Source of the DNA: Candidatus Pacearchaeota archaeon
GTDB lineage: Archaea; Nanoarchaeota; Nanoarchaeia; Pacearchaeales; GW2011-AR1
Assembly (NCBI GenBank): GCA_002690445.1
Contig: NZER01000021.1
Span: 7,462-13,480, forward strand
Length of the DNA stretch: 6,019 nucleotides
Direction: 5' to 3'
The position numbers and the translations under genes are program-made. Shown piece after piece: positions 667-6,019 of this stretch. Every line of letters starts with the position of its first letter. Position 1 is the first letter of the stretch. The notes beneath the pieces were generated by a model. The model ran no database searches. It saw nothing but the letters and a program-made list of their open reading frames with translations, and had not been told where the DNA came from.

Positions 667-2295
667 TTATAACCAATCTTCATCGGTAACATCTTTAATT
701 CCTATTTCACCCTCTCTATACGCATCTCTAGCGAGAGCTAACTTATTCAAATCATATCCATCTACAGCTGCACCTGCCATACCTACACTCCAACGCTTTC
801 CTAACGCATATTTATTAATTATCTGCTGTACTTCAGCTTCATTGTTTACTGTACGTGCAGACTTTTGCGCGGTAGGGGCTGGTTTTTCAGCTTGAGATTT
901 TTTATGTGTTGCTTTATATTCTTTATCTTCACTTTCAATAAAATGTTTAGTACTAATAAAAGAATTTGTATCCTTAGTTAAAGCTGTTTTTATTTTTTGG
1001 AGCTCTAATTTTAAAGTTCCTGGAGTACCCATTTGAAACCCCAAAGGTATTGGTGCTGTTTGACAGTGACCATTCATTTCTATTAAAATATCAACCAAGT
1101 GTTCTAAAAGTGCACGTAAATTTTCCCCTAATAAAAGTCCTTGACCTTTATCTTCTTCTTTTTCAGTCTTAGCCTGCTTTCCTAAATAAATATTAGATAC
1201 ATCAAATATTGAGTCTTTATTAGCTGAAAAAGTTATTGATTTTCCTGCACCTATATGAGTGTTTTGTAATGCAGATAAAAACAAACTATCAGATCTTGCA
1301 TTAATAGTTATTCTATCTGAACTTTGTAATTGTTGTGGTAGTTCATATTCATATATAAGTTTAGTTGCATCTTCATCCCCATTAACCATAGACACTAAAC
1401 TACCCATGGGTCGTTTAGAATCTTCTACTGTGTCTGATGCAATTACAAATGGCTTGAATTTATATTGATCTCCTTCAAGAACTATATCTTGTATAAAATG
1501 AGAATGAATTGTACCAGTTTCAAGCATAGCAAATATACTACCATCTAATGTACTTTCCATAGCTCTATCTAATGGTCTACCATTAGAAATAAAAATATAA
1601 GGGTTAACATCACGACTACCAATTCTTATACTATTTCCATGACGTCCTTCTAATATCATGTCACCATGAACTTCACCTTTTTCTCCAGTCTCATTTGCAA
1701 CAATATTTTTATCTTCTCTCGGATCATCTAAACTTGAAATATGATATTTTTGCATTCGTGGTAAAGCAGATATTCTCATAAAATCTCTTGATAATCCAAT
1801 TACATCTCTAGTATTTCCTGATGGTGATTTACTTAATGTGTCTGAAAATGTTTTAATAAACCCATCTTTATCAAAGTCAATAACTTGATTATTTTGACGT
1901 CTAAATCCACGTCTAAGATTAACATGATCAACATTATAATTTGGACTATTTTGAGTATTAAGTGGTCCTAAATAATATCCCACTTCATCAAACGAACATA
2001 ACAACACAGGATCTCCTATAGTAGGTACATCAACTATTCCTCTCAATAAAGGATAATACCTATTTTTTTCATCATCTAACCCTGGTGTATAGAACTCAGT
2101 TCCATAATGTGGTTTTGCTAGTATACTATTTATATTTCTTAAATTGTCTGCAAACGTTCCAGTCTCTTCGCTTGTAACAACCGCAGTTACTACTCCAGGT
2201 GTAAACTGTAGGAAGTGTGGTTGTGGTCTAGAATCTCCAAATAAAGATTTCCTATCTGACTTAATTTTATCAACTGATTCAAAAAGTGAGCTCAT
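667..2295 (-). CDS. gp5-like baseplate hub / central spike protein (T4-like myovirus)
   Basis: This 542-residue protein is probably part of the baseplate hub that carries the tail-tip spike. Residues about 30-113 look like the N-terminal OB-fold of gp5/VgrG-type proteins: alternating beta strands, then YYPLLRGIVDVPTIGDPVL and GYYLGPLN, the usual pattern of this fold. Residues 209-240 carry GDMILEGRHGNSIRIGSR and YIFISNGR, which resemble segments of marine T4-like phage hub proteins. Residues about 325-372 are short repeated beta strands (ITINARSDSLFLSA, THIGAGKSITFSANKD, IFDVSNIYLG), consistent with a beta-helical spike. A helical segment (388-440), a Lys/Ala/Pro linker (about 455-485) and a small C-terminal domain (486-542) follow. 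I see no T4-type lysozyme domain. The ATG follows GAGGGG and lies one base after the stop of the upstream gene. T4 gp5 family membership is fairly likely; exact orthology is uncertain. Confidence 0.78.
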   Translation of the reverse strand: MSSLFESVDKIKSDRKSLFGDSRPQPHFLQFTPGVVTAVVTSEETGTFADNLRNINSILAKPHYGTEFYTPGLDDEKNRYYPLLRGIVDVPTIGDPVLLCSFDEVGYYLGPLNTQNSPNYNVDHVNLRRGFRRQNNQVIDFDKDGFIKTFSDTLSKSPSGNTRDVIGLSRDFMRISALPRMQKYHISSLDDPREDKNIVANETGEKGEVHGDMILEGRHGNSIRIGSRDVNPYIFISNGRPLDRAMESTLDGSIFAMLETGTIHSHFIQDIVLEGDQYKFKPFVIASDTVEDSKRPMGSLVSMVNGDEDATKLIYEYELPQQLQSSDRITINARSDSLFLSALQNTHIGAGKSITFSANKDSIFDVSNIYLGKQAKTEKEEDKGQGLLLGENLRALLEHLVDILIEMNGHCQTAPIPLGFQMGTPGTLKLELQKIKTALTKDTNSFISTKHFIESEDKEYKATHKKSQAEKPAPTAQKSARTVNNEAEVQQIINKYALGKRWSVGMAGAAVDGYDLNKLALARDAYREGEIGIKDVTDEDWL

Positions 2296-2851: not shown

Positions 2852-3556
2852 TTACCTTTTATTAAAATTATATAAATCACCAGATGCATTAAACTCTCGT
2901 AATAAAACACTATAATGAGTCTTCATTACATTAAGTACTTTTGTTATATAAGCGGTATTAACACCAGCCATTTCTCTAATTAAAATATATAAACTTTTCT
3001 TATTAAAATTATCAATTTCTTCACGTCTTTTCAATAATTCAATAATTGAATATGCTATATCAATATCTCGTTTTTTCTTAAAAATATTTGGAATTCTATT
3101 TTCAAAATATTCAACCATTTGATCCATAAATTCACTCGAAAAATCTTCTGTTTTATTATAATATGGATTTTTTGACAATTCTTTAACTGTTTTTGTAGCA
3201 TCTAAATTCTTATGTATTTTTAATTTTTTATAATTCGAGTTATTAACTAATATTAAATAATTTTTAGCTACAACTGAAAAATAACTAAATGCTTTAAACC
3301 CTTTAGATTGATCATACTTATGAAGATTTAGTAAGAGAAAAGATAGAACTTCTTGTTTAACATCATCAAACCCACAATCAAAATATGAAAACTTAAATGT
3401 ATTAATTATATTTTCACATAACTTATCTAAAGCATAAGCTATTTTATCTTCATATAATTTATTTCTTATAAGTGGATTAGTTTCATGATTATATTCAACA
3501 ATTGCATCTTCAACCTCCTGATCAAAATAAATTTTATTCTTTCTCTTCCTACCCAC
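2852..3556 (-). CDS. gp55-like sigma factor for late transcription
   Basis: This is a T4 gp55-type sigma factor of 234 residues, which would bind host core RNA polymerase and direct it to phage late promoters. The diagnostic part is a sigma region 2-like segment at about 63-104: FDDVKQEVLSFLLLNLHKYD, then SKGFKAFSYFSVVAKNYLI, the core-binding and -10-recognition helices of gp55 proteins. It is longer than T4 gp55 (185 aa). The extra C-terminal part (about 187-222, NKKSLYILIREMAGV then ITKVLNVMKTHYSVLLREF) looks like a helix-turn-helix. The tail GDLYNFNKR resembles a sliding-clamp-binding peptide. Start choice: an in-frame TTG lies at 3577, but a perfect AGGAGG lies six bases before GTG at 3554-3556, giving MGRKRKNK. 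This overlaps the upstream gene by eight bases. The gene is very AT-rich and ends before a strong terminator. The family call is confident; the C-terminal features are inference. Confidence 0.9.
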   Translation of the reverse strand: MGRKRKNKIYFDQEVEDAIVEYNHETNPLIRNKLYEDKIAYALDKLCENIINTFKFSYFDCGFDDVKQEVLSFLLLNLHKYDQSKGFKAFSYFSVVAKNYLILVNNSNYKKLKIHKNLDATKTVKELSKNPYYNKTEDFSSEFMDQMVEYFENRIPNIFKKKRDIDIAYSIIELLKRREEIDNFNKKSLYILIREMAGVNTAYITKVLNVMKTHYSVLLREFNASGDLYNFNKR

Positions 3557-3821
3557 TTTGAGCCTCCTTTTCTTCAAAAATGTTATTTAATAATAATTGT
3601 ATATCTTTTAATTGTTTAAAGAAAAATGCAGTTTCATCATCTGATTCATAATGACCGTCTGCATCAACTTTTTTCATTTGTTCAGTTGCATATTCAATTA
3701 CTTGTTGAAATTGAATAATAAACTCTTCATATGTATTTATTCGCTTTAAAGCTAAGATTAATAAGTACCCTATAAATATAAATGTACATATTAAACTTAT
3801 TAAAAGTATTTCTATAACCAT
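3549..3821 (-). CDS. Small single-pass membrane protein, 90 aa, upstream of the sigma gene
   Basis: The 90-residue protein begins with one strongly hydrophobic segment (about 2-25, VIEILLISLICTFIFIGYLL), which is probably a membrane anchor. A helical cytoplasmic region follows (about 29-52) and then an acidic motif, DADGHYESDDETAFFFKQLK (about 53-72). Short proteins with a similar DG-x-(F/Y)-x-S/A-DDE motif occur in marine T4-like phages, but no function is known to me. The start is supported by GAGGG four bases before the ATG, nine bases after the stop of the HD gene. The end overlaps the sigma gene start by eight bases, so the three genes form one transcript with coupled translation. The membrane anchor makes an inner-membrane location likely; any partnership with the sigma factor is only positional. 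Confidence 0.82.
   Translation of the reverse strand: MVIEILLISLICTFIFIGYLLILALKRINTYEEFIIQFQQVIEYATEQMKKVDADGHYESDDETAFFFKQLKDIQLLLNNIFEEKEAQSG
3563..3568 (-). promoter_or_regulatory. Ribosome binding site AGGAGG deciding the GTG start of the sigma gene
   Basis: The minus strand reads AGGAGG, then six bases, then GTG. This near-ideal site lies inside the end of the upstream 90-residue gene and favours GTG at 3556 over the in-frame TTG at 3577, which would place the AGGAGG inside the coding region and has no comparable site of its own. Confidence 0.8.
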
Positions 3822-3830
3822 TTGACCCTC

Positions 3831-4580
3831 TTAAGATGCATCACTAAATAACTCATTAAACTTATTTTTTAATTCTTTAATATTATCTGGTACAGTAGAA
3901 TCATCTTTTATTGATTTTTCAAATTCTTGTTTTATATCTTCATCTACTTCTAATGATTGTTGGTAATGTTGTTTTTCAGCAACAGTACTCATCCAGTCAG
4001 CAAAATGAACTATATAATGTAAAATATTTCTAGTATCTGGTTGTCTAAAAAGACGATCATTTCCAGGTTCAAACAACCCATCACTTAATTTTATTGCTTT
4101 CCAAACTTCGGGTTTTAACTCAATATTAAAATATTGTAACAACCATAACGACCTATCAGTCACACTCATAGGTTCAAGCTTATTATTAAATGTATACCAT
4201 TCTCTTAATTTATTTCTTCGCCATTCATCTGTTTGAATTATATAATATGGATTATCTAAATCACCAATTTTTCCTAAATCATGAAACATAGCTGCTAAAA
4301 TGACTTCTTGTTTTGATGCAGTAACTTTAACATCCATAGATTTAAATTGCTCATATATATCTAATGCTGTTTGTACAACTCTAACAGAATGATCTAATAA
4401 TCCGCCTAAAAAACAATTATGATATTGTGGTCTACTCGATGCTGGGGCATCTATCATTCTATCTTCAAAATGATCAAATAGCTTCTTTATATTTTCTTTT
4501 TGTTGACCTTCAAAGTTATTATCAACAAATTCCATTAAAGTGGTCCACCTCAATAAAATTTGCTCTGATGTTAAGCTCAT
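3831..4580 (-). CDS. HD-domain metal-dependent phosphohydrolase, 249 aa
   Basis: The protein is a member of the HD superfamily, whose enzymes hydrolyse phosphate esters in nucleotides, cyclic nucleotides or related molecules using bound metal. The metal ligands are visible: H64 in GGLLDHSVRVV, H100-D101 in AAMFHDLGKIGD, and D195 in IVHFADWMST, the standard H...HD...D order. The rest is helical, as expected, with an acidic C-terminus. Start choice: an in-frame ATG at 4610 lies inside a hairpin and lacks a ribosome site, whereas GGAGG lies four bases before ATG at 4578-4580, giving MSLTSEQ. It heads a tight cluster with the 90-residue membrane protein and the sigma factor. A substrate cannot be read from the sequence. 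Roles in nucleotide salvage or in removing host signalling nucleotides are both possible. The family call is confident, the substrate unknown. Confidence 0.88.
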   Translation of the reverse strand: MSLTSEQILLRWTTLMEFVDNNFEGQQKENIKKLFDHFEDRMIDAPASSRPQYHNCFLGGLLDHSVRVVQTALDIYEQFKSMDVKVTASKQEVILAAMFHDLGKIGDLDNPYYIIQTDEWRRNKLREWYTFNNKLEPMSVTDRSLWLLQYFNIELKPEVWKAIKLSDGLFEPGNDRLFRQPDTRNILHYIVHFADWMSTVAEKQHYQQSLEVDEDIKQEFEKSIKDDSTVPDNIKELKNKFNELFSDAS

Positions 4581-4584
4581 ATAA

Positions 4585-4589
4585 CCTCC
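4585..4589 (-). promoter_or_regulatory. Ribosome binding site GGAGG deciding the start of the HD gene
   Basis: GGAGG on the minus strand precedes the ATG at 4578-4580 by four bases (TGGAGGTTATATG). It selects this start over the ATG at 4608-4610, which sits inside the stem at 4604-4633. The site is only 14 bases downstream of that stem. Confidence 0.75.
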
Positions 4590-4603
4590 ATTATTTAAAT
4601 TAA

Positions 4604-4633
4604 GTCTCACCGGGTAATTAAACCCGGTGAGAC
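4604..4633 (-). terminator. Strong 12-bp hairpin, probable terminator of the small membrane protein genes
   Basis: A perfect 12-base-pair inverted repeat (GTCTCACCGGGT at 4604-4615 against ACCCGGTGAGAC at 4622-4633) closes a six-base loop. It begins six bases after the stop codon of the 57-residue gene. On the minus strand it is followed by TTAATTT, a broken T tract, so termination may be partial. It also lies just before the HD gene's ribosome site, so it may act as an attenuator or as an mRNA-stabilising or processing hairpin rather than a full stop. Confidence 0.7.
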
Positions 4634-5132: not shown

Positions 5133-5660
5133 TTATTGTATCCTTGTATTAATCCAAGGAAATTTAAAAATATTTGCATTAGTAAATTTATACGGTTTAA
5201 CATCTGTAGATTCTAATATATCTACAACATTTACCCATTTAGCACTCATTGTATCTCTAACTTGATAAACCCCATCTTTGTAATCTGTACCCTTTAATAA
5301 TATAAAATCACCATAATCAAATGGTCCTCCCCACCTTTTCAATAAATTCCTAGACAGGGCAACATATTTATATCTTGATGCTTGTGTCATATCAAACTTA
5401 GTACCATCAGCAGTAATATCTGGTGTACGATCTGTTTGAGGATAAATAGGTTGATACATAGTTACATCAACCTCAATACCATATTCATAAAATGTTTTAA
5501 GTTCCTCTTCAAGTTCTCTATTTTGGACTGATAAATAATTTAGTAAATCATTGTAATGTAACTTTAATATAGTACTATTTTGTTCCATAAATTGTACAGC
5601 AATAAAACCATTAAATATTGTAGTAATCACTGCTGATATTATATACTTATTTAAATTCAT
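5133..5660 (-). CDS. Membrane-anchored 3D-domain (MltA/RlpA-like double-psi barrel) protein, 175 aa
   Basis: The protein has an N-terminal hydrophobic segment (about 6-23, an anchor or uncleaved signal) and a coiled, charged helix (about 29-58, with QNRELEEELKTF). From about residue 63 to 165 the pattern fits the 3D domain: VDVTMYQPIYP, TPDITADGTKFD, YVALSRNLL, DYGDFILLKG, GVYQVRDTM and WVNVVDILE. D85, D136 and D147 are candidates for the conserved aspartates that name this domain; in MltA one such Asp is catalytic in cleaving peptidoglycan glycan strands. A periplasmic, wall-acting role is therefore inferred. It lies immediately downstream of the tmRNA, with GGGAG nine bases before the ATG, and upstream of two small membrane protein genes, so it may belong to a lysis cluster. 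It could instead be a virion protein using the fold structurally. Confidence 0.8.
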   Translation of the reverse strand: MNLNKYIISAVITTIFNGFIAVQFMEQNSTILKLHYNDLLNYLSVQNRELEEELKTFYEYGIEVDVTMYQPIYPQTDRTPDITADGTKFDMTQASRYKYVALSRNLLKRWGGPFDYGDFILLKGTDYKDGVYQVRDTMSAKWVNVVDILESTDVKPYKFTNANIFKFPWINTRIQ

Positions 5661-5762
5661 AATAGTACGCTCCCATATTATTACAGTTAAATTTAAATAG
5701 TTGTAGATTAAAATAGAACCTCTTTTGTATGATTATATTTTTATTCATAATCTCTGTTGTTG

Positions 5763-6019
5763 TGGACCTGCGGGGAATCGAACCCCGGTCCAGTTTGTCT
5801 TTTTCAAAAAGTCATTCACAACTTAGTTGATTTCCATTAGTAGAAAACAACAAACAACTATGTGGATTTCTTTTGCTCAGAACATATCCCTTAACTGTTT
5901 GTCTCTTTTATACTCTGACAGCGAGTTGTGTTTAACTTATTTTATGCTCGGGTGTTAAACAACCCAAGGACTTATGCGTATGCGTAAGTCGGTTCGTAAT
6001 TCGAAATAGGCTCAACGAA
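5763..6019 (-). ncRNA. ssrA: tmRNA (ssrA), 3' part; 5' part beyond the window
   Basis: tmRNA rescues stalled ribosomes and adds a degradation tag. The minus-strand 3' end reads GGACC followed by a T-arm (CGGGG, loop TTCGATT, CCCCG) and the acceptor 3' strand CAGGTCC plus A, the universal tmRNA ending. CCA is not encoded (ACAACA follows), so it would be added. No anticodon arm precedes the T-arm, which excludes a plain tRNA. Upstream, three pseudoknots can be drawn: 5954-5960 with 5930-5936 crossed by 5947-5950 with 5922-5925; 5918-5921 with 5895-5898 crossed by 5914-5918 with 5877-5881 (sharing one base); and 5863-5866 with 5833-5836 crossed by 5855-5860 with 5824-5829. A tag frame precedes them, so the gene has standard one-piece order. 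The 5' acceptor strand, pseudoknot 1 and resume codon lie past 6019; the 5' strand should read about GGACCTG. Confidence 0.9.
5972..6019 (-). other. tmRNA tag reading frame, C-terminal end (…NYEPTYAYA-stop)
   Basis: Fifteen codons are open from the window edge to TAA at 5972-5974, encoding FVEPISNYEPTYAYA. The stop codon lies in the 3' strand of a hairpin (GACTTA / TAAGTC, extended by AACC / GGTT). This matches helix H5 of other tmRNAs, in which the end of the tag and its stop are folded just before pseudoknot 2. The other two frames do not give a plausible tag: one has a stop two codons in from the edge, the other runs on into the pseudoknots. The resume codon is outside the window, so tag length is unknown. 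The Tyr-Ala-Tyr-Ala end differs from the common Leu-Ala-Ala type. Confidence 0.65.

Follow-up and report, generated by a model that had tools for sequence, protein, structure and literature searches.

Introduction

Phages that carry transfer-messenger RNA (tmRNA) genes are already known. According to the parts of the sources available to us, the marine T4-like methylophage Melnitz possesses a complete two-piece tmRNA (PMC9004378), one-piece tmRNAs occur in mycobacteriophages and Streptomyces phages (PMC4131195), and a tmRNA database holds 97,179 unique genes, 79 of them from phages, with 10 amino acids as the most frequent tag length (PMC11915505). Described here is a family of phage tmRNAs, with a conserved tag much longer than this, that includes the gene whose 3' part lies at the end of contig NZER01000021.1 (assembly GCA_002690445.1). 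The stretch analysed, hereafter called the window, comprises the last 6,019 bases (7462-13480) of this 13,480-base virus record, and the tmRNA is truncated by the contig end. Coordinates are those of the window, and all genes and tmRNA elements located in it below lie on the minus strand.

We conclude, with a probability of roughly 0.85, that the gene represents a functional one-piece phage tmRNA which would cooperate with SmpB and alanyl-tRNA synthetase of the host and would encode a long, phage-specific tag starting at a glycine codon after the first pseudoknot (PK1). The RNA fold is conserved, the frame is long and conserved, the encoded peptide is under coding constraint, and the family is absent from the genome collections scanned.

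Results

A long and conserved tag frame

A pattern of the second pseudoknot (PK2), which was placed downstream of the tag stop and was therefore blind to the tag, is present in 118 viral loci (complete listing). A continuous frame from just after PK1 to the stop was found in 112 of 119 members, the window being counted together with the 118 loci; in the seven others, including the window, the stored stretch breaks off within 100 bases. The tag is the most unusual part of the gene: 78 distinct peptides of 34-43 amino acids follow, with few exceptions, the consensus G(D/E)xSLxGLxIDWHLA...QP(T/S)YAYA(A)*. The resume codon was assigned by its context, from the relatives only. All 71 distinct contexts have A at position -4 and T at position -1. 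The frame opens with GGC in 63 of them, with AGC in four, GAC in three and GGT in one, thus with glycine and rarely serine or aspartate. By this assignment, the Ala-like resume codon expected from an earlier sequence-only reading of the window is replaced by GGC in most of the contexts.

The pattern of variation is that of a translated peptide, although the following figures are descriptive, because the sequences are related. In the 15-codon N block, the proportions of synonymous (pS) and nonsynonymous (pN) differences are 0.345 and 0.131 (ratio 0.38), whereas the two alternative frames give ratios of 1.63 and 0.91; the first, second and third codon positions have column entropies of 0.36, 0.22 and 0.77, respectively (permutation p 8e-4). 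For the IDWHLA codons, the values are pS 0.757 and pN 0.069 (ratio 0.09), and the QPTYAY codons have a pN/pS of 0.32.

Several observations speak against a functional long tag of this kind. ARAGORN makes a tmRNA call at 52 of the 118 family loci, each with a later tag start giving 11-25 amino acids, and it shortens or misses the long tag in all 118. A hairpin at the resume codon (helix 4) has five pairs with 97.4% of cells paired and two of the five pairs changed on both sides; the glycine codon of the GL motif is GGG in 82 of 82 cases versus 2 of 62 other glycine codons (first codon set aside); and the +1 frame of the IDWHLA block also has a ratio below 1 (0.5; other frame 1.21). The window itself displays only 15 tag codons. 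While 42 of the 78 tags end in Ala-Ala, the other 36 do not. The tag alone was predicted to be without secondary structure (mean predicted local distance difference test score, pLDDT, 62), which would fit a linear signal and, at such a pLDDT, says little; comparison of the tags with Pfam and PDB gave no convincing domain, the best of the weak and scattered matches having E values of 0.055 and 0.39, respectively. In favour of the use of host SmpB, SmpB was detected in none of 13 family phage records, although these are not certified complete.

The ARAGORN calls, the hairpin and the GGG fixation, together with the codon fixation in the hairpin, where serine is TCG in 76 of 79 cases versus 16 of 155 at other tag positions, would suit a short tag: translation would resume at the ARAGORN site, and SLxGLxIDWHLA would be extra RNA structure, the hairpin covering the first five codons. 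We regard this as very improbable, since IDWHLA lies outside the hairpin and varies almost purely synonymously, and since a start at GGC agrees, as it does in Flavobacteriales, with the bases A(-4) and T(-1) and with a position directly behind PK1. The constraints on the peptide and on the RNA together lead us to read the tag region as both peptide and fold.

Conservation of the RNA fold

An alignment of 38 diverse genes supports seven helices, in which 95.1% of cells are paired and 21 of 37 pairs are changed on both sides. Four of five helix measures lie above all 500 shuffles, and the fifth (pair types) was reached by 12. For PK2, all 532 cells in the 38 relatives are paired and six of 14 pairs are changed on both sides; three measures exceed all 500 shuffles, while the number of covarying pairs was reached by 11 and the pair types by 494. 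PK1 covaries in the relatives with 80-88% of its cells paired, and we think that the shortfall stems from a sub-group of nine or ten misaligned rows. In alignment A2, the 5' end of the L158 row is displaced by one column, so that its acceptor appears broken at three pairs. A second tag hairpin proposed by RNAalifold (columns 120-125/140-145) lacks compensatory changes, and we do not claim it.

Complete genes were available for 95 members at first; after exclusion of L231 (false 5' start) and L254 (one unpaired acceptor position), 93 remained, and the unique genes of the family that are complete and have every acceptor position paired number 74. L011 is the sole complete relative with the acceptor strand of the window. 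Its 5' strand GGGCCTG faces CAGGTCC and thereby forms the G3.U70 pair, so the strand differs from the GGACCTG that had been anticipated from the window and keeps this pair. G3.U70 occurs in 38 of 38 aligned genes and in each of the 93 complete ones whose acceptor has all seven pairs, and the acceptor stems of other members are compensatory (GGGGCTG/CAGCTCC, GGGCCCG/CGGGTCC, GGGGGTG/CACCTCC and others). CCA is encoded at the gene end in only three of the 93.

Distribution of the family

The gp5-like protein encoded at 667..2295, when used as a single query, retrieved no locus, and an alignment of it retrieved 80 viral loci that share this conserved gene. ARAGORN found a tmRNA in two of the 80 (L011 and L057), about 2.5-3 kb before the conserved gene, as in the window, and that of L011 is complete (78.3 bits, RF00023). 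L057 carries at the equivalent place (7090-7459) a different tmRNA, with the tag GNDYNYHAVA and an encoded CCA.

Phage tmRNAs had been thought uncommon in the sequence-only reading, and this does not agree with the at least 120 viral stretches that match a loose tmRNA 3' pattern. Most of the tmRNAs called by ARAGORN among them have ordinary tags such as ANNNLHFEQRLAA. Ordinary tags of the ANNNxHFxxxxLAA type (L083-L202) are common in viral contigs, and other unusual ARAGORN tags were seen in L148 (8490-8874, GETKTPAKVFTLGAESNYAYGIAV) and L302 (7570-7920, GASDRLITQGQTPVQLAV). When the tmRNA of L109 was compared with phage records, 184 matched, all of them over less than 80% of its length, and the best 20 match only around the T-arm.

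The PK2 pattern that found the family occurs in no GTDB genome contig. A looser 3' pattern was found in six GTDB contigs, of which five have ARAGORN tags of 13-18 amino acids and one (L304) has no call; a long-type tag is absent from the ARAGORN calls on these six. Likewise, the IDWHLA pattern is absent from 395 genomes of the phylum Bacteroidota. A reciprocal search with the IDWHLA codons gave 29 new matches that were checked among those listed, and a T-loop-like sequence lies downstream in 24, four of which miss the usual tag end; of the five others, four stop at the stretch end and L366 lacks such a sequence by the simple pattern. In six-frame translations of the collected loci, tag motifs outside the counted tmRNAs amount to two chance-like partial matches (L114, L348), and the remaining occurrences are further copies of the same tmRNA (L137, L143, L258). 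L137 and L143 have the tag, miss the exact pattern and stand outside the counts, and L001, L002 and L258 were left out as duplicates of the window's contig or of L011.

These distributions also bear on the origin of the gene. The window holds 3' tmRNA sequence alone, at a contig end, as might be expected if a tmRNA of the host had been carried into a phage contig or if the piece were a chromosomal fragment. There is hardly any chance that this is the case: 118 viral loci have the same RNA, most of them with shared phage neighbours, whereas no GTDB contig shows the pattern and the collections scanned hold no copy on a bacterial chromosome. The phage neighbour genes and the 118 viral loci agree with the sequence-only reading, which took the gene to be phage-borne.

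The truncated gene in the window

In the window, the 3' part of the one-piece phage tmRNA extends over 5760..6019, with its 5' part off the contig. It was detected with the Rfam tmRNA model (RF00023; 5760-6019, 30 bits, E 2.5e-9, marked as cut at the 5' end) and with a family hidden Markov model (HMM). Truncation of the gene keeps the Rfam score below the gathering score of 47; the complete relative L011, as given above, exceeds it. The nucleotide HMM, built from 65 related genes with the window excluded, matches 6017-5760 with 180 bits (E 4e-54) and reported none of 50 shuffled windows. ARAGORN made no tmRNA call in the window or in the whole 13,480-base contig, which is what truncation at the contig end would lead one to expect. 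An exact search of viral contigs with the 3' end of the window gave no match, and neither did a comparison of the window DNA with phage records.

The last 15 codons of the tag, FVEPISNYEPTYAYA, are visible by frame reading at 5975..6019, and the frame is expected to continue for about 23 codons upstream, off the contig; the nearest full tags (L146/L147, L217, L295) terminate in ...FVEPVSNYEPTYAYA. The tag stop TAA (5972..5974) lies inside helix P5 (5970-5989), and the matching helix 5 covaries in the relatives. It is followed by PK2 (5930..5968), with two perfect 7-bp stems (CTTGGGT/ACCCGAG crossed by GTTTAAC/GTTAAAC) and covariation in the relatives, and by PK3 (5895..5926; ACTC/GAGT crossed by CTGT/ACAG) and PK4 (5860..5889; GGAT/ATCC crossed by ATGT/ACAT), whose 4-bp stems were recognised solely by complementarity and correct crossing order. 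The T-arm (5771..5787) was assigned from the Rfam match and by reading, and its stem (helix 7) covaries in the relatives. The 3' acceptor strand CAGGTCC with U70 and the discriminator A occupies 5763..5770; CCA is not encoded, the next bases being CAA (5760-5762), and of the acceptor pair 3-70 the window has the U70 side alone.

In the window as in the complete relatives, the tag lies ahead of the T-arm, which means that the gene is one-piece and not two-piece (permuted), as had been concluded beforehand. The T-arm, the acceptor end, the three pseudoknots and the tag frame that had been read directly from the window are thus borne out, in agreement with RF00023 and the HMM.

Genomic neighbourhood and host

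The first gene after the tmRNA (5133..5660) encodes a protein of 175 amino acids matching phrog_21574 (E 6.6e-10). Two small open reading frames, membrane-like by eye, separate it on the same strand from a gene for an HD-domain phosphohydrolase (3831..4610; PF01966). The gene at 2852..3577 may encode a late sigma factor. It had been called gp55-like, and this part of the earlier reading stands weakly: two of four relatives match phrog_234 (best E 0.0089), and the window's own protein does not match it. The conserved gene at 667..2295, for which 665 homologues were scored and which served to find relatives, is located just before the baseplate wedge genes and has no PHROG or Pfam match; from this position we take it to be gp5-like. 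Two proteins of the same contig match baseplate wedge PHROGs of the gp25 and gp6 type, in line with the T4-like neighbours described before.

Conserved synteny in related viral contigs, a check that had been named beforehand, was found at most of the 118 loci: the 175-aa homologue is present in 89, the HD gene in 81 and the sigma-like gene in 81, in counts lowered by stretches that end too early to show neighbour genes. The 175-aa homologue lies upstream of the tmRNA in five of the 89.

As to the host, the gp6 and HD proteins are 32% and 41% identical to those of Flavobacterium phage immuto, in which the HD, sigma-like, gp25-type and gp6 genes have the same order as here. Isolate matches of the 175-aa protein (nine records) are to Cellulophaga, Tenacibaculum and human faecal phage records. 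The terminase of one family record of 164,845 bases is nearer to Microcystis phage Mel-JY01 (57%) than to immuto (54%), and gp6 is likewise slightly nearer to Mel-JY01. A host among the Bacteroidota appears likely from these similarities, and the members are T4-like marine phages that probably infect Bacteroidota. An alphaproteobacterial host, which the sequence-only reading had considered, finds no indication: apart from the Microcystis phage, the isolate matches point to Bacteroidota. ARAGORN found no tmRNA near the baseplate genes of immuto and Mel-JY01, and Rfam searches of the whole records gave no tmRNA in immuto and a single 17-base match below the cut-off in Mel-JY01.

Further features of these phages were noted in passing. 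One of the 13 long-tag phage records, L349 (record G067), has a ClpP-family protease gene. Among the genes preceding the tmRNA or the conserved gene are open reading frames resembling peptide deformylase by eye (L011:5293-5886, L057:5925-6494, L003:415-1116). GC-rich, terminator-like intergenic hairpins are present at 2781-2807 and 4604-4633 of the window; the first yields weak MicX matches on both strands, and we rejected these Rfam matches as a terminator-like hairpin scoring below the cut-off. Ambiguous bases seem to fall within the gene directly beyond the low end of the window (L002, about 7224-7461; X in the translations).

Discussion

From established tmRNA biology, host alanyl-tRNA synthetase would be expected to charge the phage tmRNA via the G3.U70 pair and host SmpB to carry it to stalled ribosomes. 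Translation would then resume at the glycine codon just after PK1, if the codon has been placed exactly, and the product would receive in vivo an alanine plus the tag of 34-43 residues, in which Bacteroidota-like ends, G(D/E)...YA-A, would enclose some 27 inserted and conserved residues (SLxGLxIDWHLA...QP). In this way ribosome recycling might be maintained in a cell full of broken mRNA.

The fate of the tagged fragments is a further matter. For ClpXP of E. coli, the most important feature is the Ala-Ala at the tag end, according to the portion of the study available (PMC7652416), and the 42 of 78 tags with this end may thus remain good ClpXP signals. A different route is described, again in a source accessible in part, for Mesoplasma florum, which is devoid of active ClpXP and in which an extended tag ending in NYAFA is recognised by Lon (PMC9382460). 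The split of 42 and 36 tags at the Ala-Ala end and the Lon route of M. florum make an altered degradation route or rate our leading guess; we would give about even odds that the purpose is recycling together with delivery of the tagged fragments to another protease, or with a slower turnover than that of the host tag.

One may ask whether the long tag has any special role. If the gene were an ordinary phage tmRNA that supplements host rescue, its long tag would be degraded like that of the host, and both the E. coli evidence just cited, as far as available, and the common occurrence of short-tag viral tmRNAs count in favour of this. We consider it rather doubtful, since a plain degron does not need a conserved insert of about 27 residues and since 36 of the 78 tags have no Ala-Ala end. 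As a tentative and bolder idea, the tag might act as a phage effector peptide, a handle of about 36 residues that passes rescued products to a new partner, for which another protease, a protein of the phage or the membrane are candidates, or that jams host ClpXP. If this were true, ribosome rescue would become a phage-controlled protein labelling encoded in an RNA that is peptide and fold at once.

We know of no agreed answer to the question why phages carry tmRNA. The combination of host-type tag ends with a conserved inserted peptide provides a specific and testable reason, namely control over rescued products, and suggests that these phages rewrite the fate of proteins from rescued ribosomes.

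Among the titles and abstract openings listed, a range with most subscription journals outside it and with two listings confined to 30 of 61 and 15 of 2,366 entries, no conserved phage family with a tag of 34-43 amino acids has been described. The tmRNA of Melnitz is permuted and of the alphaproteobacterial type, and the accessible text of that paper makes no mention of a long tag (PMC9004378). The tag of Streptomyces phage Tomas, DNSNVAFALAA, is short and unlike that of the family. The extended tag of mollicutes, of which a 27-residue variant is printed in the accessible part of PMC10873288, is long as here, but it is bacterial and, by eye, similar at the end only.

The nearest comparison is with the likely hosts. 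Sixty genomes were sampled from Flavobacteriales, the order named in the title of a metagenome-assembled genome; 52 matched, 30 loci were kept and ARAGORN called 27. As in the phage family, these tmRNAs are one-piece, mostly have a glycine resume codon in a similar context, with the exact start TAAAT|GGCGAA in ten of the 27, and mostly lack an encoded CCA. Their tags, however, have 8-10 amino acids in 26 of 27 cases (L336 being an odd call) and end in YALAA or YAMAA (GENNYALAA type) without SLxGLxIDWHLA, whereas the phage tags mostly end in YAYA(A). At both ends, the phage tag therefore resembles a Bacteroidota tag, between them it has some 27 inserted residues, and its length is about four times that of the tags found in the likely hosts.
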